Assembly: GCA_017983795.1 (NCBI GenBank)
Contig: JAGOAS010000026.1
Span: forward strand, 1-58,992
DNA: 58,992 nt
Direction of reading: 5' to 3'
Source of the DNA: Piscinibacter sp.
GTDB lineage: Bacteria; Pseudomonadota; Gammaproteobacteria; Burkholderiales; Burkholderiaceae_C
A program made the position numbers and the translations under genes. Below, in pieces: positions 38,167 through 48,649 of the stretch (position 1 is its first letter; each line of letters opens with the position of its first letter). Under the pieces are notes generated by a model. That model made no database searches and had not been told where the DNA came from. It was given only the letters and a program-made list of their open reading frames with translations.

Positions 38167-39369
38167 ATGTGGCTGAACACCCTGCTGCTGGCGCTGCGCG
38201 AGATCCGCCGCAACCTGCTGCGCTCCTTCCTGACCATGCTGGGCATCGTCATCGGCGTCAGCGCGGTGATCACGATGGTGACGCTGGGCAAGGGCGCGAC
38301 GCGCTCCGTGCAGGCGCAGATCGCCAGCCTGGGCAGCAACCTGCTGATGGTGATGCCGGGCCAGCGCCTGGGCCCGGGCGGCGGCGGCGGGCCGCCGTTC
38401 GCCGCTGCCGACGTGGAGGCGATCGCCTCGCAGATCGGCGGCGTGCGCCTGGTGGCGCCGGAAGTGCGCAGCAGCGCGACGCTGGTGGCCAACGGCCGCA
38501 ACTGGTCGGCGCAGGTGACCGGCTCGACGCAGAACTGGTTCAGCGTCGCCAACTGGACGATCGCCTCGGGTCGCGGCTTCGAGCCCGACGAGGAGCGCGT
38601 CGGCGCCGCCGTCTGCGTGATCGGCGCGACGGTGCGCAAGGAGCTGTTCGGCAGCGCCGATCCGCTCGGCGAGCAGGTGCGCGTCAAGAAGTTCTCCTGC
38701 ACCGTGGTCGGCCTGCTCGGCAGCAAGGGCCAGGGCGCGATGGGCAACGACCAGGACAACCTGCTCGTGTTGCCGCTGGCGACCATGCAGCGCCGCGTCG
38801 TCGGCCACACGCGCATCAACACCATCCTGGTGTCGATGAACGAGAGCGCCGACACCGATCGCCTCAAGGCCAGCCTCGAGCAGCTGATGCGCGAGCGCCG
38901 CAAGCTCGCCGACGCCGACGACAACAACTTCAACGTGCTCGATACGCGCCAGATCGCCGATACGATGTCGGGCACCACGCAGATCATGACCATGCTGCTC
39001 GGCGCGGTGGCCGCGGTGAGCCTGGTGGTGGGCGGCATCGGCATCATGAACATCATGCTGGTCAGCGTCACCGAGCGCACGCGCGAGATCGGCGTGCGCC
39101 TGGCGATCGGCGCGCTCGAGCGCGAGGTGCTGCTGCAGTTTCTCGTCGAGGCGGTGGTGCTGGCCGCGCTGGGCGGGCTGATCGGCATCGCGCTGGCGAC
39201 GGTGGCCTCGATCGCGCTGGCGCGGCTGATGCAGATTCCCTACGCTTTCGACGCGTCGATCAACCTGCTCGCCTTCGCCTTCTCGGCGGCGATCGGCGTG
39301 GTCTTCGGCTACTTCCCGGCGCGTCGCGCGGCGCGGCTGGATCCGATCGAGGCGTTGCGCCACGAGTGA
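38167..39369 (+). CDS. MacB-like ABC transporter permease
   Basis: The 400-residue membrane protein has the MacB permease layout. TM1 is at about residues 18-40, a large periplasmic MacB-PCD domain at 45-260, and three C-terminal membrane segments carry [20 protein letters not shown] and end with [17 protein letters not shown], the usual end of the family. It works with the preceding ATPase, adaptor and channel. Its last 110 bases are overlapped by the antisense C-terminal extension of the LysR gene, which marks the border of the next module. Confidence 0.94.
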
Positions 39370-40270
39370 AGCGGGCACGCTTCCTGACCTCGCCGAACAG
39401 TTCGTAGAGCTGCTGTGCCGCCGGCGACAGCGAGCGGCCGCGACGGCGGATCAGGCCGACCATGCGCGTGACGACCGGATCGACCAGCGGCAGGCTGACC
39501 AGCAGCGGGTGATCCGGCCCGGGCATCGCCATCGCCGGCACGGCCGCGACCCCGAGCCCGGCCTCGACGAGGCCGAGCGTCGTGGTCACGTGCTGCGTCT
39601 CGTAGATGGCCTGCGGGCGGTTCGGCATCCCGGCCAGCGCCTGGTCGAGCAGGACCCGGTTGCCGGAGCTGCGGCCGACCGAGATGAAGTCGTACTGGCC
39701 GAGTTGCGCCCAGCTGACCTTGCGCGCCTTGGCGAGCGGGTGGTCGCGCCGGCAGGCGGCGACGAAGCGCTCCTCGACGAGCGGCTTGAACTCGAGCTCG
39801 CCCTCCTGCGCGCCGATGAAGTTGAGGCCGAAGTCGGCCTCGCCGCGCGCCACCGCGGCCAGCGCTTCGTTGGCGCCCGCGTCCAGCACTTTCACGCGCA
39901 CCTTCGGGCAGCGCTCGTGGTAGCGGCGGATCACCTCGGAGAGGTAGTAGTAGACGGTCGACGGCACGCACGCGACCGTCACCTCGCCCATGCGCGTCGC
40001 GGCGACGCCGCGGATGCCGAGCAGCGTGGCATCGAGGTCGTCGAGAAGCTCGCGCACCTTGCGCTCGAAGTCGCGCCCGACCGCGGTCAGCGTCACGCGC
40101 CGCGTCGTGCGCTCGAGCAGGCGCACGCCCAGCGCCTGCTCGAGCTTGTCGATGCGCCGGCTGAAGGCCGGTTGCGACAGATGCACCGACTCGGCCGCCT
40201 TGCGGAAGTTGCTCAGTTCGGCGACGGCGCGGAAGGCGAGCAGGTCGTTCAGGTCGAAGTTGATGGCCAT
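39260..40270 (-). CDS. LysR-family transcriptional regulator of the dicarboxylate module
   Basis: The 336-residue protein has an N-terminal winged HTH (residues 5-65, [19 protein letters not shown]) and an effector-binding domain from about 92 to 295. The conserved part ends near [14 protein letters not shown]. The last 40 or so residues are Arg/Pro-rich and lie antisense to the macB permease end, so the natural stop codon seems to have been lost at a recombination border. The gene is divergent from the PrpF-type gene, the usual position of a LysR activator of the adjacent operon. Its likely ligand is the acid degraded by the module, by analogy with the itaconate regulator RipR/ItcR of Pseudomonas. 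Confidence 0.88.
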
Positions 40271-40307
40271 CGGGTGCCTCGTCGGATTGATGCGTCGTGT
40301 CGATCAG

Positions 40308-40337
40308 TTGATCTTAAAGATGCAATTCCGTTTTGCA
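40308..40337. promoter_or_regulatory. Putative LysR operator between the regulator and the catabolic operon
   Basis: The 92-base divergent spacer is AT-richer than its surroundings. It contains the near palindrome ATCTTAAAGAT at 40311-40321 and an inverted pair TGCAA (40321-40325) / TTGCA (40333-40337). The symmetry and position fit a LysR site, but no experimental consensus applies. Confidence 0.45.
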
Positions 40338-40362
40338 ATGCCGGCGCCGAAGATTCGGCTCC

Positions 40363-41460
40363 ATGAACCGAGTCATCCCCTGCGTCCTGATGCGTGCCGG
40401 CACGTCGCGCGGCCCGTTCTTCCTGCGCGACTGGCTGCCGGCGGACGACGCCGCGCGTGACGAGGCGCTCATCGGCGCGATCGGCGCCTCGGATCTGCTG
40501 CAGGTCGACGGCGTCGGCGGCGGCAGCACGCTGACCAGCAAGGTCGCGATCGTCTCGAACTCGTCGCAGCCGGATTGCGATGTCGACTACCTGTTCGCGC
40601 AGGTTGGCGTCGGCCAGAAGTCGGTCGACACGCGTCCCAACTGCGGGAACATGCTGTCGGGCGTCGCGCCGTTCGCGATCGAGCAGGGCCTCGTCACTGC
40701 ACAAGACGGTGAAACAACGGTGCGGGTGTTCAACGTCAACACGCGCTCGCGCATCGACGTCACGGTGCAGACGCCGGGGCGGCGCGTCACCTACGCCGGC
40801 GACACCGGCATCGACGGCGTGGCCGGCACTGCCGCGCCGATCCGCCTGAACTTTCTCGACGCCTGGGGCTCGGTGACCGGCTCGCTGTTCCCGACCGGGC
40901 AGCGCATCGACCGCATCGAGGGCCTCGACGTGACCTGCATCGACGCCGCGATGCCGCTGGTCATCATGCGGGCACGCGACCTGGGACTGAGCGGCCGAGA
41001 GACGCCGGCCGACCTGGACGCCGACCGCGCGCTGCTCGAGCGCATCGAGACCGTGCGCCGCGCCGCCGGCGCCGCGATGGGCCTCGGCGACGTGTCCGGC
41101 AGCGTCGTGCCCAAGCCGGTGATCGCGAGCGCCGGCGCCGACGAGGACAGCATCACCTCGCGCTATTTCACGCCGCGCCGCTGCCACGCCTCGCATGCCG
41201 TCACCGGCGCGATCGGCGTCGCGACCGCATTCGCGCTGCCCGGCACCGTGGCCAGCAGCGAACGCCCGACGCTCGGGCAGCGCCGCATCGCCGTGCTGCA
41301 TCCGCAAGGCCGCATCGAAGTCGACGTGCAGGTCGACGGTGCGGGCGACGAGGCCCGCATCCAGCGCGCCGCGCTGGTGCGCACGGCGCGCAAGATCCTG
41401 CAGGGCGACCTGCACATCCCCGATTACGTCTTTTCCAAACCAAGCTCAGGAGACACGCTG
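40363..41460 (+). CDS. PrpF/GalD-type allylic isomerase (open into the next gene)
   Basis: About 365 residues match the PrpF superfamily and are especially like 4-oxalomesaconate tautomerase GalD: MRAGTSRGPFFL, DGVGGGSTLTSKVAIV, DVDYLFAQV and the catalytic-cysteine block NCGNMLSGVAPFA. These enzymes move a double bond in unsaturated di- or tricarboxylates; the fungal relative Adi1 converts cis- to trans-aconitate. No stop codon separates this gene from the Bug receptor: the frame continues to 42438. The ATG at 40363 is chosen by family alignment. In this context an aconitate or C5-dicarboxylate isomerase is inferred; gallate degradation is unlikely because no other gallate gene is present. 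Confidence 0.85.
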
Positions 41461-42438
41461 ATGAAACCCGTGCAGGCCCTTCGCACAGCCGCCGCCGCCG
41501 CGGCGGTCGCCACCGCACTCACGGCCGCGCCGGCGGCATTCGCCTACCCCGACAAGGTGATCACGCTCGTCGTGCCGACCGCCGCAGGCGGCGGCAACGA
41601 CGCGATGGCGCGCACGATCGCACAGAAGCTCGGGCCGCTGCTCGGCCAGACCATCATCATCGACAACCGGGCCGGCGCGAACGGCTCCATCGCGAGCGAG
41701 TACGTCGCCCGCGCGGCGCCCGACGGCCACACGCTGATGTTCGGCTACATCGGCACGCACGCGATGAACCCGGCGCTGCAGAAGCTGCGCTACGACCCGG
41801 TGGCGGACTTCGAGCCGATCGGGCTGGTCGGCTCGTCGCCGACGCTGATGGTCACGAACGCCGCGGCGCCGATCAAGGACGTCAAGGATCTGGTCGCGCA
41901 GCTCAAGGCCAAGCCCGACAAGTTCACCTACGCGTCCGCCGGCAACGGCACCGCGCCGCACTACGCTGCGGAGCTGTTCAAGCTCAACGCCGGCGTCGTG
42001 ATGCTCGGCATTCCGTACAAGGGCTCGGCGCCGGCGGTCAGCGACACGATCGGCGGCCAGACGCAAGTGATGTTCCCGAGCCTGTTCACCGCGCTGCCGC
42101 ACGTGAAGTCCGGCAAGCTGAAGGCGATGGCCGTGGCCGGGCCGAAGCGCAGCGCGCTGCTGCCCGACGTGCCGACGATGAAGGAAGCGGGCGTCGAAGG
42201 CGTCGAGGTCGAGCAGTGGTATGGCCTCTTCGCACCGGCGAAGACGCCGAAGGCGATCGTCGACCAGATCAACAAGGCGCTCAACCAGGTGCTCGCCGAC
42301 AAGGACATCGAGAAGCGCATCGAGGATCACGGCGCCGACGTGCAGGGCAGCACGCCGGCCCAGCTCGGCGCGCTCGTGAAAAGCGAGCTGGCGAAGTGGA
42401 AGAGCGTCGTTCAGCGTGCGAAGCTGACCGCCGACTGA
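41461..42438 (+). CDS. Bug/TctC-family tripartite tricarboxylate-type solute receptor
   Basis: The 325-residue protein has a signal peptide ending near APAAFAYPDK and the TctC fold, with VVPTAAGGGNDAMARTIAQ and NRAGANGSIASEYVARAAPDG lining the carboxylate-binding site. It binds a carboxylate in the periplasm. An AGGAGACACGCTG site stands before the ATG at 41461, so it can be translated on its own although the upstream frame has no stop. No TctA or TctB membrane subunit is nearby, so it may use transporters encoded elsewhere, as many orphan Bug proteins do. Confidence 0.92.
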   Translation: MKPVQALRTAAAAAAVATALTAAPAAFAYPDKVITLVVPTAAGGGNDAMARTIAQKLGPLLGQTIIIDNRAGANGSIASEYVARAAPDGHTLMFGYIGTHAMNPALQKLRYDPVADFEPIGLVGSSPTLMVTNAAAPIKDVKDLVAQLKAKPDKFTYASAGNGTAPHYAAELFKLNAGVVMLGIPYKGSAPAVSDTIGGQTQVMFPSLFTALPHVKSGKLKAMAVAGPKRSALLPDVPTMKEAGVEGVEVEQWYGLFAPAKTPKAIVDQINKALNQVLADKDIEKRIEDHGADVQGSTPAQLGALVKSELAKWKSVVQRAKLTAD

Positions 42439-42482
42439 ACCCGCACTTGCCGACAAGACCCACTCCACCAGGACACCATCCG

Positions 42483-43568
42483 ATGAAGAACAAGCTCTTG
42501 ACCCCGTTCGCCGCCGCCGCGCTCGCCGCCCTGAGCGGCGCCACCGCTGCGCAGAGTAGCGTGACGCTCGGCGGCGTCGCCGATGCCGCCGTGCGCATGG
42601 TGCGCAACGAAGGCGTCGGCAGCGTCAAGTCGGTGATCAGCGGCGGCAACGCGACCAGCCGCCTGATCGTGCGCGGCAGCGAAGACCTCGGCGGCGGACT
42701 GTCCGCCGGCTTCCACCTCGAGCACGGCATCGCGCTCGATACCGGCAGCGCCTCCGGCGGCGCGCAGTTCTGGGACCGGCGCAGCACGATCAGCCTGGCC
42801 AGCAGCAGCCTGGGCGAACTGCGCCTGGGCCGCGACTACGTGCCGACCTACACCATGTGGGTGCGGCAGGATCCGTTCAGCCACGTCGGTGTGGCCAGCT
42901 CGAGCAACCTGTACACCGCGACGCCGATCGGCCCGATCCGCTCCGCGTTCGCGAGCAACCCCAACACGCTGGTGCGCTCGAACAATTCGGCGCAGCTGCT
43001 GCTGCCCGCCGGCCTCGGCGGTCTGGAAGGCGGCCTGATGCTCGGCGCCGGCGAAGGCGGCACGCAGGCACAGGGCGCGCACAAGCTCACCGCGGGCCGG
43101 CTCGGCTATGCGGCGGGGCCGGTGTTCGTCGCCGTCGCCTACGCGAAGAGCGAGAACGACGTCACCGCGGCGAGCGGCGACTTCACCGACACGCTGATCG
43201 GCGGCTCGTACAACTTCGGCGTCGTCCGCGTCGCGCTGACCCAGCGCGCGTTCAGGCAGGCCAACGCGAAGCAGACGCTGCGCATGCTCGGCGCCTGGGT
43301 GCCGATGGGTAGCGGCGAGATCAGGTTCCAATGGCTCGCCAGCAACATGAACGGCCGCGTCGGCGCGACCAGCGTCGCCGCGAACGACGCGCGCCAGCTC
43401 GGCCTCGGCTACGTGCACAACCTGTCCAAGCGCAGCGCGCTGTACGCGCAGGTCGCCCGGGTCGACAACGACGGCGCGGCGACCTATGTCGTCCCGGGCG
43501 GCCCGGCGGGCATCGCCGGCGGCCGCACGTCGACCGGCGCGGAGATCGGCATCCGGCACAGCTTCTGA
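42483..43568 (+). CDS. Gram-negative porin (Burkholderiales trimeric type)
   Basis: The 361-residue protein has a signal peptide (cleavage near ATAAQSS), begins its mature part with SSVTLGGVADAAV and ends in IGIRHSF, with the C-terminal phenylalanine needed for outer-membrane insertion. Segments RLIVRGSEDLGGGLSAGFHLE and LGELRLGRDYVPTY are typical of 16-strand porins of the order. Its place between the receptor and the enzymes suggests uptake of the carboxylate substrate across the outer membrane. Confidence 0.93.
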   Translation: MKNKLLTPFAAAALAALSGATAAQSSVTLGGVADAAVRMVRNEGVGSVKSVISGGNATSRLIVRGSEDLGGGLSAGFHLEHGIALDTGSASGGAQFWDRRSTISLASSSLGELRLGRDYVPTYTMWVRQDPFSHVGVASSSNLYTATPIGPIRSAFASNPNTLVRSNNSAQLLLPAGLGGLEGGLMLGAGEGGTQAQGAHKLTAGRLGYAAGPVFVAVAYAKSENDVTAASGDFTDTLIGGSYNFGVVRVALTQRAFRQANAKQTLRMLGAWVPMGSGEIRFQWLASNMNGRVGATSVAANDARQLGLGYVHNLSKRSALYAQVARVDNDGAATYVVPGGPAGIAGGRTSTGAEIGIRHSF

Positions 43569-43576
43569 GACCGACC

Positions 43577-44422
43577 ATGGAACAACAGCTCACCGACTGG
43601 ATCGGCCGCAGCGAGACGCTGCGCGACCAGATCACCGCCGCCCCGGTGCGCGGCCTCAACGCGACGCTGGACCACCCGGCGATCGCGGTCGAGAACGGCA
43701 CGCCGCTGTTCCCGCTGTGGCACTGGCTGTATTTCCTGCCGCAGCACCGCCAGAGCGAGATCGGCCCGGACGGGCACGCCAAGCGCGGCGGCTTCCTGCC
43801 ACCGGTGCCGCTGCCGAGGCGCATGTGGGCCGGCAGCCAGTTCGAGTTCCGCGCGCCGGTGCGCGTCGGCGACGCCGTCGAGCGCAGCTCGACGATCGCC
43901 GACGTGACGACGAAGGAGGGGCGCAGCGGCAAGCTCGTCTTCGTCAAGGTGCGGCACGAGCTGCGCTGCAACGGCGCGGCGGATCCGGCGATCGTCGAGT
44001 TCCACGACATCGTCTACCGCGATGCGAAGAAGCCCGGCGATGTCGAGCCGCCGCCGACGCCGGCCGCGCAGGGCGACTGGCAGCGCGAGATCGTGCCCGA
44101 CGACGTGCTGCTGTTCCGCTACAGCGCGCTGACCTTCAATGGCCACCGCATCCACTACGACCGCCAGTACGTCACGCAGGTCGAGGGTTATCCGGGCCTG
44201 ATCGTGCACGGCCCGCTGATCGCGACGCTGCTGATGGACCTGGTGCGCCGCCACGCCCCCGACGCGCAGGTCGCGAGCTTTCGCTTCAAGGCGGTGCGGC
44301 CGACCTTCGATCTGCACCCGTTCAAGCTCAACGGCCGGCGCGAGGGCAACGAGGTGAAGCTGTGGGCGCAGGACCACGAAGGCTGGCTGACGATGGACGC
44401 CGTCGCCACGCTGAAGGGCTAG
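43577..44422 (+). CDS. MaoC/FAS1-like acyl-CoA hydratase (Ich / mesaconyl-C4-CoA hydratase type)
   Basis: The 281-residue double hot-dog protein begins with LTDWIGRSETLRDQI. It has LFPLWHWLYFLPQHRQSEIG and the hydratase segment YSALTFNGHRIHYDRQYV followed by EGYPGLIVHGPLIATLL. This pattern is shared with mesaconyl-C4-CoA hydratase and the itaconyl-CoA hydratase Ich of Pseudomonas, which add water to give citramalyl-CoA. The neighbours, a CoA-transferase and a CitE-like lyase, supply the steps before and after. It begins eight bases after the porin stop codon. Confidence 0.87.
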   Translation: MEQQLTDWIGRSETLRDQITAAPVRGLNATLDHPAIAVENGTPLFPLWHWLYFLPQHRQSEIGPDGHAKRGGFLPPVPLPRRMWAGSQFEFRAPVRVGDAVERSSTIADVTTKEGRSGKLVFVKVRHELRCNGAADPAIVEFHDIVYRDAKKPGDVEPPPTPAAQGDWQREIVPDDVLLFRYSALTFNGHRIHYDRQYVTQVEGYPGLIVHGPLIATLLMDLVRRHAPDAQVASFRFKAVRPTFDLHPFKLNGRREGNEVKLWAQDHEGWLTMDAVATLKG

Positions 44423-44432
44423 AACATGACAA

Positions 44433-44504
44433 CCCCCACGCTCACTTCGTTCGCTGCCCCCCGAGGGGGCGCGCGGTACCTTCGGAACGGCCGGGCGGTA
44501 CCGC
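44433..44504. repeat. REP-like palindromic element inside the operon
   Basis: The 83-base gap between hydratase and CoA-transferase genes carries CTCACTTCGTTCGCTGCC and the hairpin GCCCCC-CGA-GGGGGC at 44456-44470, followed by an 8-base inverted repeat GCGGTACC/GGTACCGC at 44473-44480 and 44497-44504. The first part matches a dispersed intergenic repeat familiar from Burkholderiales genomes. Confidence 0.65.
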
Positions 44505-44505
44505 G

Positions 44506-45699
44506 ATGAGACCGCTGCAAGGCATCACCGTCGTCACGCTCGAACACGCGATCGCGGCGCCGTTCTGCACGCGCCAGCTGGCCGACCTCGGCGCGCGCGT
44601 GATCAAGATCGAACGGCCCGGCGTCGGCGACTTCGCGCGCGGCTACGACCAGCGCGTGAAGGGTCTCGCGTCGCACTTCGTCTGGACCAATCGCAGCAAG
44701 GAGAGCCTGACGCTGGACGTCAAGCATCCGAAGGCGGCCGAACTGCTGACGCAGCTGATCGTCGAGAAAGCCGACGTGGTCGTGCAGAACCTCGCGCCCG
44801 GCGCCGCGACGCGGCTCGGCGTCTCGTTCGACGCGCTGAAGGCGCGGCGCCCCGACCTGATCGTCTGCGACATCTCCGGCTACGGCGACGATCCGACGAA
44901 GCCCGGTCCGTACCGCGACAAGAAGGCCTACGACCTGCTGATCCAGAGCGAATCGGGTTTCGTCTCGATCACCGGCACGCCCGACGAGCCGTGCAAGGCG
45001 GGCCTCTCGATCGCCGACATCGCGGCCGGCATGTACGCGTATACGAACATCCTCGCTGCACTGCTGCAGCGCAAGATCGACGGCCAGGGACAGCGCATCG
45101 ACATCTCGATGCTCGAGGCGATGGGCGAGTGGATGGGCTACGCGATGTACTACGCGTTCGACGGCGCGGCGCCGCCGCCGCGCGCCGGCGCCGCGCACGC
45201 GACGATCTACCCCTATGGCCCGTTCCCGACGGGCGACGGCCGCACCGTGATGCTCGGGCTGCAGAACGAGCGCGAGTGGCAGCAGTTCTGCGCCAAGGTG
45301 CTGCAGCAGCCCGAGCTCGCGAAGGACGAGCGCTTCACCGGCAACACCCGGCGCGTGACGCACCGCGAGGCGTTGCGCGCGCTGATCATCGAGACCTTCG
45401 CGTCGCTCACCGCCGAACAGGTTCTGGAGCGCATCGAGGATGCGCAGATCGCGAACGCGCAGGTCAACGACATGGCCGGGCTGTGGGCGCACCCGCAGCT
45501 GAAGGCGCGTTCGCGCTGGCGCGAAGTCGGCTCGCCGGCCGGCCCGCTGCCCGCGCTGCTGCCGCCGGGCTCGTGGGACGATGGCGACCCGGTGCTGAAG
45601 CCGGTGCCGGCGCTGGGGCAACACAGCGACGCGATCCTGGCGGAACTCGGCATCGATGCGGCCGGCATCGCGGCCTTGCGCGCGGCCGAGGCGGTGTGA
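44506..45699 (+). CDS. Family III CoA-transferase (CaiB/BaiF), probable itaconate/mesaconate CoA-transferase
   Basis: The 397-residue protein has the family III fold with LEHAIAAPFCTRQLADLGARV at the N-terminus, NRSKESLTLDVKHP, and the catalytic aspartate in KKAYDLLIQSESG. Members exchange CoA between a thioester and a carboxylate. In the itaconate route Ict forms itaconyl-CoA from succinyl-CoA, and in mesaconate use related enzymes make mesaconyl-CoA. The gene lies directly after the hydratase and before the citramalyl-CoA lyase-like gene, which supports this role. The start is the ATG at 44506, just after the REP element. Confidence 0.88.
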   Translation: MRPLQGITVVTLEHAIAAPFCTRQLADLGARVIKIERPGVGDFARGYDQRVKGLASHFVWTNRSKESLTLDVKHPKAAELLTQLIVEKADVVVQNLAPGAATRLGVSFDALKARRPDLIVCDISGYGDDPTKPGPYRDKKAYDLLIQSESGFVSITGTPDEPCKAGLSIADIAAGMYAYTNILAALLQRKIDGQGQRIDISMLEAMGEWMGYAMYYAFDGAAPPPRAGAAHATIYPYGPFPTGDGRTVMLGLQNEREWQQFCAKVLQQPELAKDERFTGNTRRVTHREALRALIIETFASLTAEQVLERIEDAQIANAQVNDMAGLWAHPQLKARSRWREVGSPAGPLPALLPPGSWDDGDPVLKPVPALGQHSDAILAELGIDAAGIAALRAAEAV

Positions 45700-45701
45700 C
45701 C

Positions 45702-46517
45702 ATGAACGCGCCGCGCAGCTACCTGTTCGTGCCGGGCGACCGGCCCGAGCGCTTCGAGAAGGCGCTGGCCAGCGCGGCCGATGCGATCGTCGTCGACCTC
45801 GAGGATGCCGTCGCACCGCTGGCCAAGGCGGCAGCGCGCGACGCGGTCGCCGCACTGCTTGCCACCGGACGAGCGGTGGACCGGATCGTCGTGCGCATCA
45901 ACGACGAGACGACGCCGTGGTTCGACGCCGACCTCGCGCTGCTGCGGAACGGCCAGGCTCGCGCCGTCATGCTGCCCAAGGCCGAGCGCGCCGAGACGAT
46001 CGCCCGCGTGCGGTCGGCATGCCCCGACATTGCGGTCCTGCCGCTGATCGAGAGCGCACGCGGCATGCTCGCCGCCGAAGCGCTGGCCGCTGCCGACGGC
46101 GTGCAGCGGCTCGTCTTCGGCACGATCGACTATGCGCTCGACATGGATCTGCAGGGCTCGCTCGCGACGACGGTCGGGCTCGATGCTGCCGCTGCGCGTC
46201 TGGCGCTGGCATCGCGCGCCGCTGGTCGGCTGCCGCCGGTGGCCGGCGTGACGGTCGCGATCGCCGACGAGGCCGCCTTGCGCGCCGACATGGAGCGCGC
46301 ACTCGCGCATGGCTTCGCCGCCAAGCTGTGCATCCATCCGAAGCAGATCGCGCCGCTGCATGCGCTGCTGGCGCCGAGCGCCGACGAGTTCGCCTGGGCA
46401 CAGCGCGTGCTCGAAGCGGCCGACGCCGCCGGCGGCGCCGCCGTGCAGATCGACGGCCGCATGGTCGACAAGCCCGTGATCGAACGCGCCCGCCGCATCG
46501 CTCAGCGCTCGCGCTGA
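45702..46517 (+). CDS. CitE-like citramalyl-CoA / malyl-CoA lyase (HpcH/HpaI family)
   Basis: The 271-residue TIM-barrel protein has the CitE motifs RSYLFVPGDRPERFEKA, the metal and CoA site VVDLEDAVAP, VRIND, LPLIESARGM and the terminal KLCIHPKQI. The family cleaves beta-hydroxyacyl-CoA thioesters; Ccl splits citramalyl-CoA to acetyl-CoA and pyruvate. It follows the CoA-transferase by two bases. Substrate specificity between citramalyl-CoA and malyl-CoA cannot be read directly; the context favours citramalyl-CoA. Confidence 0.88.
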   Translation: MNAPRSYLFVPGDRPERFEKALASAADAIVVDLEDAVAPLAKAAARDAVAALLATGRAVDRIVVRINDETTPWFDADLALLRNGQARAVMLPKAERAETIARVRSACPDIAVLPLIESARGMLAAEALAAADGVQRLVFGTIDYALDMDLQGSLATTVGLDAAAARLALASRAAGRLPPVAGVTVAIADEAALRADMERALAHGFAAKLCIHPKQIAPLHALLAPSADEFAWAQRVLEAADAAGGAAVQIDGRMVDKPVIERARRIAQRSR

Positions 46518-46554
46518 CCCAACACCCTCTCATCCACGATTCAAGGAGCCTGCC

Positions 46555-47901
46555 ATGGCCGCTTCCATCATCGACTCCAGCATCTTCCAGGGCATCTTCA
46601 CCACCGATGCGATGCGCCAGGTGTGGAGCGACGAGAACCGCACCGCCAAATACGTCGAGATCGAGCGCGCGCTCGCCGTCGTGCAGGGCCGGCTCGGCAT
46701 CATCCCGAAGGAGGCGGCCGACGAGATCGTCCGCCACTGCCGCATCGAGAATATCGACATGGCGCGGCTGCGCCAGCAGACCGAGCGCATCGGCTATCCG
46801 ATCCTCGGCGTCGTCACGCAGCTGAACCAGCTCTGCCGAGACAAGCTCGGCGAGTTCGTGCACTGGGGCGCGACGACGCAGGACATCACCGACACCGCGA
46901 CCGTGCTGCAGATCCGCGAGGCGCTCGAGCTGGTCGACGGCGAACTCGCCGCGATCGCGCAGGCGTGCGCCAAGCTCGCGAAGGAGCATCGCCTGACGCC
47001 GGTGATCGGCCGCAGCAACCTGCAGCAGGCGATTCCGGTGACCTTCGGCTACAAGATCGCCGGGCTGCTGTCGGCGGTGCTGCGCCACCGCGAACGCCTC
47101 GCGCAGTTGAAGGAGCGCGTGCTCGTCGGCGAGTTTGCCGGCGCCGCCGGCACGCTGGCCTCGATCGAGAAAGGCGCGATGGAGACGCAGGCGGGCCTGT
47201 GCGCCGAGCTCGGCCTGCAGCAGCCGGTGATCGCCTGGCACACGATCCGCGACAACATCGCCGAGACCGGCGCGCTGCTCGGCCTGATCGGCGGCACGCT
47301 CGGCAAGCTCAGCATGGACGTCAAGCTGATGATGCAGACCGAGGTCGGCGAGGTCTTCGAGCCCTACCACCACGGCCGCGGCTCGAGCAGCACGATGCCG
47401 CAGAAGCGCAACCCGATCGCGAGCTGCTACATCCACGCCGCGATCAGCGTCGTGCGCCAGCATGCCGCGGCGCTGATGGACGCCATGGTCGCCGACCACG
47501 AGCGCTCCACCGGCCCCTGGGAGATCGAGTGGATCGTGCTGCCCGAGGCCTTCTGCCTGATCGCCGGCGCGCTGAAGCAGTCGCGCGCGGTCGTCGAGGG
47601 GCTGGAGGTCGATGCCGCGGCGATGCTGCGCAACATCGAGATGACCGGCGGCCTCGTGATGAGCGAGGCGGTGATGATGGGCCTCGGCCCCTACATTGGC
47701 CGCGAGTATGCGCACGACCTGGTCTACGACCTGTGCCGCGAATCTCTCGCGAAGAAGACGCCGCTGCTCGAACTGCTCGCCGCGCACCCCGAGATCAAGC
47801 GCCATGTCGACCGCGCCGCGCTGCAGCGCATGCTGGACCCGGCCAACTACCTCGGCCAGTCGGGGCTGATGGTCGATCGCGTCCTCGCGCGCCTGGGCTG
47901 A
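46555..47901 (+). CDS. Adenylosuccinate-lyase/CMLE-family lyase, candidate aconitate decarboxylase
   Basis: The 448-residue protein belongs to the fumarase/aspartase superfamily. It has [20 protein letters not shown], the central helix residues and the signature [11 protein letters not shown] with the mobile catalytic-serine loop. It is closest in pattern to adenylosuccinate lyase and 3-carboxy-cis,cis-muconate cycloisomerase (CMLE), but the PQKRNP motif differs from the PHKRNP usual in CMLE. The fungal trans-aconitate decarboxylase Tad1 belongs to this same branch. No purine or protocatechuate gene is nearby, and the gene ends the operon of itaconate-type enzymes. A role in producing or opening the module's substrate is inferred; argininosuccinate-like or N-substituted aspartate substrates remain possible. 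Confidence 0.8.
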
Positions 47902-47933
47902 GCCTGCCGCGACATCGCCGAAGCCGGCACGCC

Positions 47934-48649
47934 GTCTTCTGCACCATCGTCAGCGGCATCGCCTCGCTGAACGACTCGCGCGAGATCGGCAAGACGCTGC
48001 TGCTGTCGGTGCTTTGCAGCTTCGGGCTGGCGCGCATCGGCGCGCCCGGCCGCGCGGTACTCGACGGCATCGACGGTTTCGCGCACATGCTGTTCGTCGC
48101 GTTCGGCTTCATCATGCGGCTGGCGCCGCTCGGGGCGTTCGGGGCGATGGCGTTCACCGTGGGGCGCTACGGCATCAAGTCGATCGGCTCGCTCGGCCTG
48201 CTGATCGGCACCTTCTACGTCGCCTGCGGGTTTTTCGTCGTCGTCGTGCTCGGGCTGCTGGCACGCCTGCATGGCTTCAAGCTGTGGCAGCTGCTGCGCT
48301 ACATCCGCGAGGAACTGCTGGTGGTGCTCGGCACCTCGGCTGGGGCCAGATCGCCGCGATGCTCGGCCTGATGCTGCTCACCTCGAAGGGCGCGGCCGGC
48401 GTCGCGCTGATCGTGGGCATCGACCGCTTCATGTCGGAAGCGCGCGCACTCACCAGCACGATGAGCAATGCGGTCGCCTGCGTCGTCGTGTCGATCTGGG
48501 AAAGGGCCTGCGATCGCGAGGTCCTGCAGCGCGAGCTGACGCAGGGTTATGCGGCGACGGAAGAGGCGCTCGAGGACGAGGCAACGATGCCGCTGCCGGG
48601 CGCGATCGTGCCGGGCGTGTCGAACTCCGGCGGCCCATTGCCGACTTGA
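47934..48649 (+). pseudogene. dctA: Decayed C4-dicarboxylate:cation symporter gene (dctA remnant)
   Basis: The translation matches DctA in blocks: [12 protein letters not shown], then [20 protein letters not shown] and [14 protein letters not shown], then after a frame change [12 protein letters not shown] and [15 protein letters not shown]. The first third of the protein is absent, a segment after the first block is missing, the serine-rich GTSSS substrate loop up to the last helices is lost, and about 23 residues are missing inside GAAGV/ALI. A frameshift lies near 48345. The protein cannot be functional. It follows the lyase gene by 32 bases in the same direction, so the module once carried its own uptake permease. 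Confidence 0.88.

Follow-up and report, generated by a model that had tools for sequence, protein, structure and literature searches.

A Tad1-type lyase in a bacterial gene cluster as a candidate link between aconitate and itaconate catabolism

Why should a gene cluster of Burkholderiales and related bacteria place a lyase of the Tad1 type, an enzyme type known from the corn smut fungus, next to relatives of the bacterial enzymes of itaconate breakdown? The question is raised by positions 39260..48649 of a 58,992-nt stretch of DNA from Piscinibacter sp. (assembly GCA_017983795.1, contig JAGOAS010000026.1), which we call the window. The answer that we consider likely is that the cluster is a catabolic operon for six-carbon tricarboxylates, namely trans- and cis-aconitate and, in those relatives that bear tcuAB, tricarballylate as well. 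The pathway put forward in the initial annotation of this DNA, in which aconitate is isomerized, decarboxylated to itaconate, activated, hydrated and split, is supported by the emergence of Tad1 as the nearest relative of the lyase, by the residues shared with Tad1, by the relatives of the enzymes of the lower half, by the recurrent linkage of the genes and by their association with tcuAB; every reaction and the direction of flux are predicted from sequence comparisons.

The argument begins with the lyase (46555..47901, plus strand), a putative trans-aconitate decarboxylase (Tad) by its scores, residues, placement in trees and gene neighbourhood. Among all solved structures its nearest relative is Ustilago maydis Tad1, which it matches over almost the full length (511 bits, 54% identity), followed by 3c8t (434 bits, 48%) and the carboxymuconate lactonizing enzyme (CMLE) of Pseudomonas putida (356 bits, 41%). 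It falls below the NCBIfam equivalog cut-offs for CMLE (PRK09053, 487 vs 595; TIGR02426, 347 vs 355.75; PRK05975, 222 vs 371). Six of its residues, T112, N155, K257, S277, Y292 and H294 (T155, N198, K300, S320, Y335 and H337 in Tad1 numbering), are present in all 28 aligned bacterial Tad rows and in Tad1, but in none of the 25 rows of the 3c8t type and none of the 38 other rows; S154 follows the same pattern, save for its presence in 2 of the 38. In this superfamily three conserved stretches make up the active site, and several of the Tad-specific positions presumably fall within or next to them. Going by the titles of solved structures, S277 corresponds to the residue altered in an S320A crystal of Tad1, and R317 to R360, a mutant of which was solved with trans-aconitate; R360 is conserved but common to 62 of the 63 other lyase rows and hence not diagnostic for Tad. 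The histidine of the RTH/RTHL motif of the 3c8t-type lyases (25/25 rows) is replaced by Asn155 in the window lyase, as in Tad1, and the RTW motif of the two aligned solved bacterial CMLEs reads RSN. A FastTree phylogeny of 90 bacterial rows places Tad1 as sister to the bacterial Tad clade with a support of 0.97, and in a tree of 92 more widely sampled rows Tad1 joins the bacterial Tads with a support of 99 in the Shimodaira-Hasegawa-like approximate likelihood ratio test (SH-aLRT). The initial annotation had held that a firm alignment of the lyase with CMLE, adenylosuccinate lyase or an N-substituted aspartate lyase would speak against its pathway; the comparison came out the opposite way, with the lyase lying nearest to Tad1 and carrying the Tad1 residues. 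The scores, the motif residues and the neighbourhood led us to reject CMLE, adenylosuccinate lyase and 3c8t-type identities. Among named genomes the closest orthologue is that of Methylibium rhizosphaerae (93%).

Three genes upstream of the lyase on the same strand would supply the lower half of the pathway. The first (43577..44422) encodes a MaoC-like double-hotdog protein, the proposed itaconyl-CoA hydratase, whose only matches among solved structures are an itaconyl-CoA hydratase (8khg, 240 bits) and a MaoC-domain protein (8huc, 237 bits). The second (44506..45699) encodes a family III CoA-transferase (Pfam CoA_transf_3, PF02515, 349 bits), the proposed itaconate CoA-transferase, and the third (45702..46517) a CitE-like lyase, the proposed citramalyl-CoA lyase. 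The nearest solved structures to the latter, 8khl/9nzb, bear the name “acyl-CoA lyase beta chain” (181 bits), and we take them to be the Pseudomonas citramalyl-CoA lyase. The CoA-transferase, the hydratase and the CitE-like protein are relatives of Ict, Ich and Ccl, respectively, rather than certified members of these families.

To survey the neighbourhood of the lyase, we made a scan that found 252 stretches encoding its relatives, took the best 80 of these (76-93% identical) and counted neighbouring genes by tblastn. With the window this yields 81 Tad loci (referred to below by our L numbers where needed), 51 of which are at least 20 kilobases (kb) long and are termed long-flank loci. In these 51, the CoA-transferase was found in 46, MaoC in 47, CitE in 38, LysR in 43, PrpF in 38 and Bug in 26; the counts within 7 kb of Tad are 47 for MaoC, 46 for the CoA-transferase, 38 for CitE, 31 for PrpF and 13 for TcuA. 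By comparison, among 20 loci of 3c8t-type lyases (~50% identical) and 20 of more distant lyases, which are slightly shorter (8.5 to 19 kb, 33/40 at least 18 kb), not one has a CoA-transferase, MaoC, CitE, PrpF, a LysR of the window type, TcuA or TcuB. The initial annotation had suggested a search for the same gene set in other genomes, and the set does recur, with all three lower-half genes together in 36/51 long-flank Tad loci, 29 of which also have PrpF, as against 0/40 of the controls. The gene set is thus more than a chance association, since the neighbours recur around orthologues of the lyase and around none of the 40 control lyases. The two halves stand together in loci whose titles name Burkholderiales, Aromatoleum/Azoarcus or Azospirillum, with no CitE detected in Azospirillum. 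Tad orthologues of at least 70% identity are sparse in broad samples, with 4/399 genomes drawn from the order and 2/397 from the phylum, the window's own being included in both counts, but are common within the family, where 36 of 45 genomes having a PrpF-Bug match encode one. In L027, L049, L051, L055, L071, L194, L195 and L200, Tad and MaoC were seen with no CoA-transferase or CitE reported nearby.

The neighbours also include the genes of tricarballylate utilization, with tcuA present in the fetched stretch of 20/81 Tad loci and tcuB in 18/81. TcuA is the tricarballylate dehydrogenase that makes cis-aconitate, and its occurrence with TcuB beside the module points to aconitate as the probable entry compound. 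The proteins of L057 lie well above the equivalog cut-offs (TcuA, 767 vs 369 bits; TcuB, 412 vs 247), as do the TcuA proteins of L009 and L011 (727 and 744 bits), so that all three tested TcuAs pass. The tcuAB pair lies downstream in L057 and upstream and divergent in Ideonella paludis L011, indicating that the linkage has several origins or has been rearranged. As for transporters, TctA was found in 6/81 Tad loci and those of the tripartite ATP-independent periplasmic (TRAP) type in 10/81.

The proposed isomerase is the PrpF domain at the start of a 691-aa open reading frame (ORF; 40363..42438, plus strand), in which it extends to ~41421. Its best solved relative is YbhH (377 bits), followed by an oxalomesaconate isomerase (310 bits), which we take to be LigU. 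Lys60 and Cys94, the sites of substitutions in the solved LigU chains, are present in the window PrpF and invariant in 28/28 aligned fusions (see below). This is the only PrpF found in its own genome. Bacterial aconitate isomerases of this family are on record, TarA and TbrA both being PrpF proteins, with tarA divergent from a LysR gene (PMC11495376); the nearest relative reported for the Ustilago isomerase Adi1 is oxalomesaconate tautomerase, the very family that NCBIfam assigns to the window PrpF (PMC4720413). A role in gallate or protocatechuate degradation, as oxalomesaconate tautomerase, was considered; the cluster shows no gene of the gallate pathway, and the genome was not searched for one. 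In Aromatoleum-type loci each end of the cluster has a PrpF gene, and the two genes differ (L057, 2707-3825 and 17586-18749); the second lies beside genes for a 2-hydroxyacid dehydrogenase and an OprD porin.

The initial annotation listed PrpF and a Bug receptor as separate genes. Both are indeed present, but as parts of the one uninterrupted ORF: the PrpF domain is followed by a linker, YVFSKPSSGDTL, a signal peptide and a Bug/TctC receptor domain, and Pfam PrpF (5-353) and TctC (416-686) are matched in a single frame with no stop between them. The junction DNA also holds a potential internal start for Bug, comprising a GGAGA Shine-Dalgarno-like site and an in-frame ATG at 41461 (41449..41463, plus strand). 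Among the window and the 80 Tad loci, Bug directly follows PrpF in 31 matches, and in 31/31 the two are in one frame; the extra loci add two further fusions, L197 and L201, the latter a repeat of L042. In the remaining 34 PrpF matches, which end in their own stop or a broken frame, no Bug of the window type follows; L077 has a separate TctC-family gene behind PrpF. Fusions were seen, among others, in the window, L006-L020, L042, L062, L197, L209-L237, L239-L245 and L252-L254.

We also drew 250 genomes from the family, 45 of which have a PrpF-Bug match. These comprise 24 fusions with an internal GGAG site, an ATG or GTG and a signal peptide, 11 signal-less fusions with a short linker, 6 genomes with two separate genes and 4 with the Bug match alone. 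Thus, PrpF and Bug are in one frame in 35/41 family genomes having both, 11 of the 35 being without a signal peptide; these genomes belong partly to the same species as the Tad loci, and the two fusion counts are not independent. The junction of G931, a genome of the window's own genus, is that of the Piscinibacter-titled loci L012 and L016. Overall there are 52 distinct junctions, 39 with an internal start and 13 without, and the distance from the YVF motif to the internal start takes ten values from 11 to 45 codons with no stop or change of frame. A sequencing slip as the cause of the continuity was rejected on the strength of the 52 distinct in-frame junction sequences with linkers of many lengths. 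Given that separate genes are possible, as in the six genomes, in-frame junctions of so many lengths would be surprising if the fused chain had no importance. The fused polypeptide is presumably made. The fusion, moreover, goes with Tad: orthologues of at least 70% identity accompany 21/24 signal-peptide fusions, 11/11 signal-less fusions, 0/6 split pairs and 4/4 Bug-only genomes, which makes 32/35 fused against 0/6 split (Fisher p 1.9e-5, a descriptive value that ignores kinship).

The signal-less fusions imply a cytosolic receptor domain. A separate secreted Bug is encoded near those of L240-L244, L252 and L254, and none was seen near those of L062, L239, L245 and L253. An AlphaFold model of the L062 fusion (predicted local distance difference test [pLDDT] 66, predicted template-modelling score [pTM] 0.48) has two domains joined by a low-confidence linker and is too poor to judge their packing. 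A speculative proposal, which we hold to be possible but doubtful, is that in Burkholderiales the aconitate isomerase and the tricarboxylate receptor work as one polypeptide. In most lineages the signal peptide would serve as an internal anchor that ties a cytosolic isomerase to an outside receptor, and the internal start would yield free receptor; elsewhere a signal-less cytosolic receptor would feed or gate the isomerase; and the smut itaconate pathway might have descended from this operon.

Taken as a pathway, the products would act in the following order. The porin and the Bug receptor would help uptake, the PrpF domain would exchange cis- and trans-aconitate and the Tad1 orthologue would decarboxylate trans-aconitate to itaconate, thereby pulling the isomerase, as reported in vitro for Adi1 with Tad1 (PMC4720413). 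The CoA-transferase would then convert itaconate to itaconyl-CoA, the MaoC hydratase itaconyl-CoA to citramalyl-CoA and the CitE-like lyase citramalyl-CoA to acetyl-CoA and pyruvate.

Several observations weigh against this catabolic route. At the level of the individual proteins, the CitE-like lyase scores 141 bits against an equivalog cut-off of 375 for RipC_Ccl (NF038242), though this is its best family, and the best NCBIfam names for the CoA-transferase are succinate-glutarate and succinyl-CoA:mesaconate CoA-transferase, both below cut-off. The PrpF domain lies above the cut-off of the 4-oxalomesaconate tautomerase family NF033377 (488 vs 440); the two PrpF proteins of L057, a locus with tcuAB, also pass it (450 and 501), and the family may therefore span aconitate isomerases. 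For the lyase itself, an approximately unbiased (AU) test does not reject a grouping of Tad1 with the 3c8t type (p 0.23), leaving the exact branching of Tad1 unsure; the residues speak more clearly than the tree for an affinity with Tad1. In the structure comparison with Tad1 suggested in the initial annotation, made with a model of the lyase (mean pLDDT 88), Tad1 chains take ranks 1-12 of the Foldseek list by E-value, but the template-modelling (TM) scores overlap (Tad1, 0.84-0.92; 3c8t, 0.89; CMLE, 0.88-0.90), those of 3c8t and CMLE being as high as those of Tad1, so that the fold alone does not decide. At the level of the loci, 15/51 long-flank Tad loci are without at least one of MaoC, CoA-transferase and CitE, 13/51 are without PrpF, and 3/51 (L035, L045 and L053) are without the whole lower half, L035 and L045 keeping LysR, PrpF and Bug. 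Of eight additional Tad loci, mostly 69-73% identical (L201 among them, and one of 12 kb only), 7 have MaoC, 4 the CoA-transferase, 3 CitE and 2 PrpF, suggesting that the set is looser or scattered in more distant orthologues. No TcuA was found in the window's own genome, in a search run without a positive control, and the pathway there may start from aconitate itself. Finally, aconitate could go straight into the tricarboxylic acid (TCA) cycle, and the detour needs a reason.

An alternative that we regard as unlikely is that aconitate enters the TCA cycle through PrpF and aconitase, with the Tad branch only detoxifying surplus trans-aconitate, an aconitase inhibitor. The TarA route of Bacillus velezensis (PMC11495376) and the description of trans-aconitate as toxic (PMC4720413) would fit such a role, as would the six split-gene and three fusion genomes of the family that are without a Tad orthologue. 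However, the operon also contains an acetyl-CoA- and pyruvate-forming module, which suggests that the carbon is used, and all four Bug-only genomes have Tad, which is thus kept where no PrpF of the window type was found.

It is quite improbable, in our judgement, that the lyase is some other member of the CMLE/aspartase superfamily that frees fumarate or mesaconate from a substituted succinate, with the CoA module degrading a C5 acid and PrpF tautomerizing an unrelated intermediate. The superfamily is versatile, and a paralogue in the same genome, C32 (L005, 8599-14005), which is 52% identical to the window lyase and of the 3c8t type, adjoins genes for a Bug protein, a class I fumarase-like protein and a dicarboxylate symporter (the last on our own reading), a setting that suggests a fumarate-releasing lyase; its operon probably serves such an enzyme. 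The motif histidine of that type is nevertheless asparagine in the window lyase and Tad1, the 20 3c8t-type loci have no MaoC, CoA-transferase, CitE or PrpF nearby, and the linkage with tcuAB would go unexplained. Very unlikely is a third explanation, that the operon degrades external itaconate or mesaconate with Tad running in reverse or on a side substrate and aconitate not a natural substrate: the CoA-transferase, hydratase and lyase would suffice for itaconate, as their Pseudomonas counterparts do (PMC9875883), but PrpF, Tad and tcuAB would be left without a purpose, and the coupled Tad1 and Adi1 reaction is reported as apparently irreversible (PMC4720413).

Returning to the proposed aconitate operon, its remaining features are as follows. 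A LysR-type regulator (39260..40270, minus strand; Pfam HTH_1 and LysR_substrate) is divergent from the isomerase gene, and an outer-membrane porin (42483..43568, plus strand; Pfam Porin_4, 171 bits) follows the fusion. The genes named in the initial annotation are all present, LysR facing away from the plus-strand block. Within the plus-strand block the intergenic gaps are 2 to 83 bases. The cluster ends in an element additional to that earlier list, a degenerate remnant of an SDF/DctA-type dicarboxylate symporter (47934..48592, plus strand), recognizable by tblastn as pieces in two frames with parts missing; in Roseateles violae L042 an intact SDF symporter stands at this place, directly behind Tad. 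Downstream of the cluster lie genes for an elongation-factor-G paralogue and then a small heat-shock-like protein, and upstream, from our reading of the ORF translations, a MacAB-like transporter.

If the proposed pathway is correct, bacteria can convert aconitate, a plant acid, and tricarballylate to acetyl-CoA and pyruvate without the use of aconitase, and itaconate is an intracellular intermediate in soil bacteria. The cluster, carried by numerous Burkholderiales and bacteria related to them, would be a source of bacterial enzymes for making itaconate and provide a testable hypothesis on where the smut genes came from; its fusion of enzyme and receptor was unexpected. We found neither a bacterial Tad operon nor the PrpF-Bug fusion described in the available text of the open-access PubMed Central papers searched, including PMC4720413, PMC12290011, PMC11495376, PMC9875883, PMC8307300 and PMC6320622; subscription papers and preprints lie outside this scope.

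Known systems resemble the operon in parts. In the tarRAB system of Bacillus velezensis a LysR gene is likewise divergent from that of a PrpF aconitate isomerase and accompanied by an importer, but trans-aconitate is there converted to cis-aconitate for central metabolism, and the words itaconate and decarboxylase are absent from the main text of the paper (PMC11495376). The tcu system is represented in relatives by the NCBIfam-named TcuA (tricarballylate dehydrogenase) and TcuB (its 4Fe-4S partner) next to the module, whereas both are absent from the window and the control-less search of its own genome recovered no TcuA; the classical Salmonella tcu pathway feeds aconitase. A hypothetical scheme for purple bacteria runs through the same intermediates in reverse, from pyruvate and acetyl-CoA to aconitate, and its enzyme table includes an aconitate decarboxylase (EC 4.1.1.6), with no operon or bacterial Tad gene named in the available portion of that paper (PMC8307300). 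The Pseudomonas cluster PA0878-PA0886 (Ict, Ich and Ccl) shares the three-step logic of the lower half, and the nearest solved relatives of the window hydratase and CitE-like lyase carry such names. Unlike the window operon, its gene list, as given in the accessible part of PMC9875883, has no Tad or PrpF and includes an acyl-CoA dehydrogenase, a lactonase and an MmgE/PrpD protein, the last reported to be a methylsuccinate isomerase (PMC12290011).

The upper half finds its counterpart in the itaconate cluster of Ustilago maydis, where the PrpF protein Adi1 converts cis- to trans-aconitate, which Tad1 then decarboxylates (PMC4720413). The smut protein Rdo1 shares 59.7% identity with PA0880 from the itaconate cluster of Pseudomonas (PMC9875883), and this, together with the place of Tad1 beside a bacterial catabolic clade, fits a bacteria-to-fungus transfer; as our trees contain a single fungal row, a bacterial origin of the smut itaconate genes is a conjecture. 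Whereas the Ustilago cluster is fungal, biosynthetic and exporting, the window operon is bacterial and includes genes for uptake and a CoA module for catabolism. With its candidate bacterial trans-aconitate decarboxylase, it would join fungal itaconate formation and bacterial itaconate breakdown, hitherto described apart.

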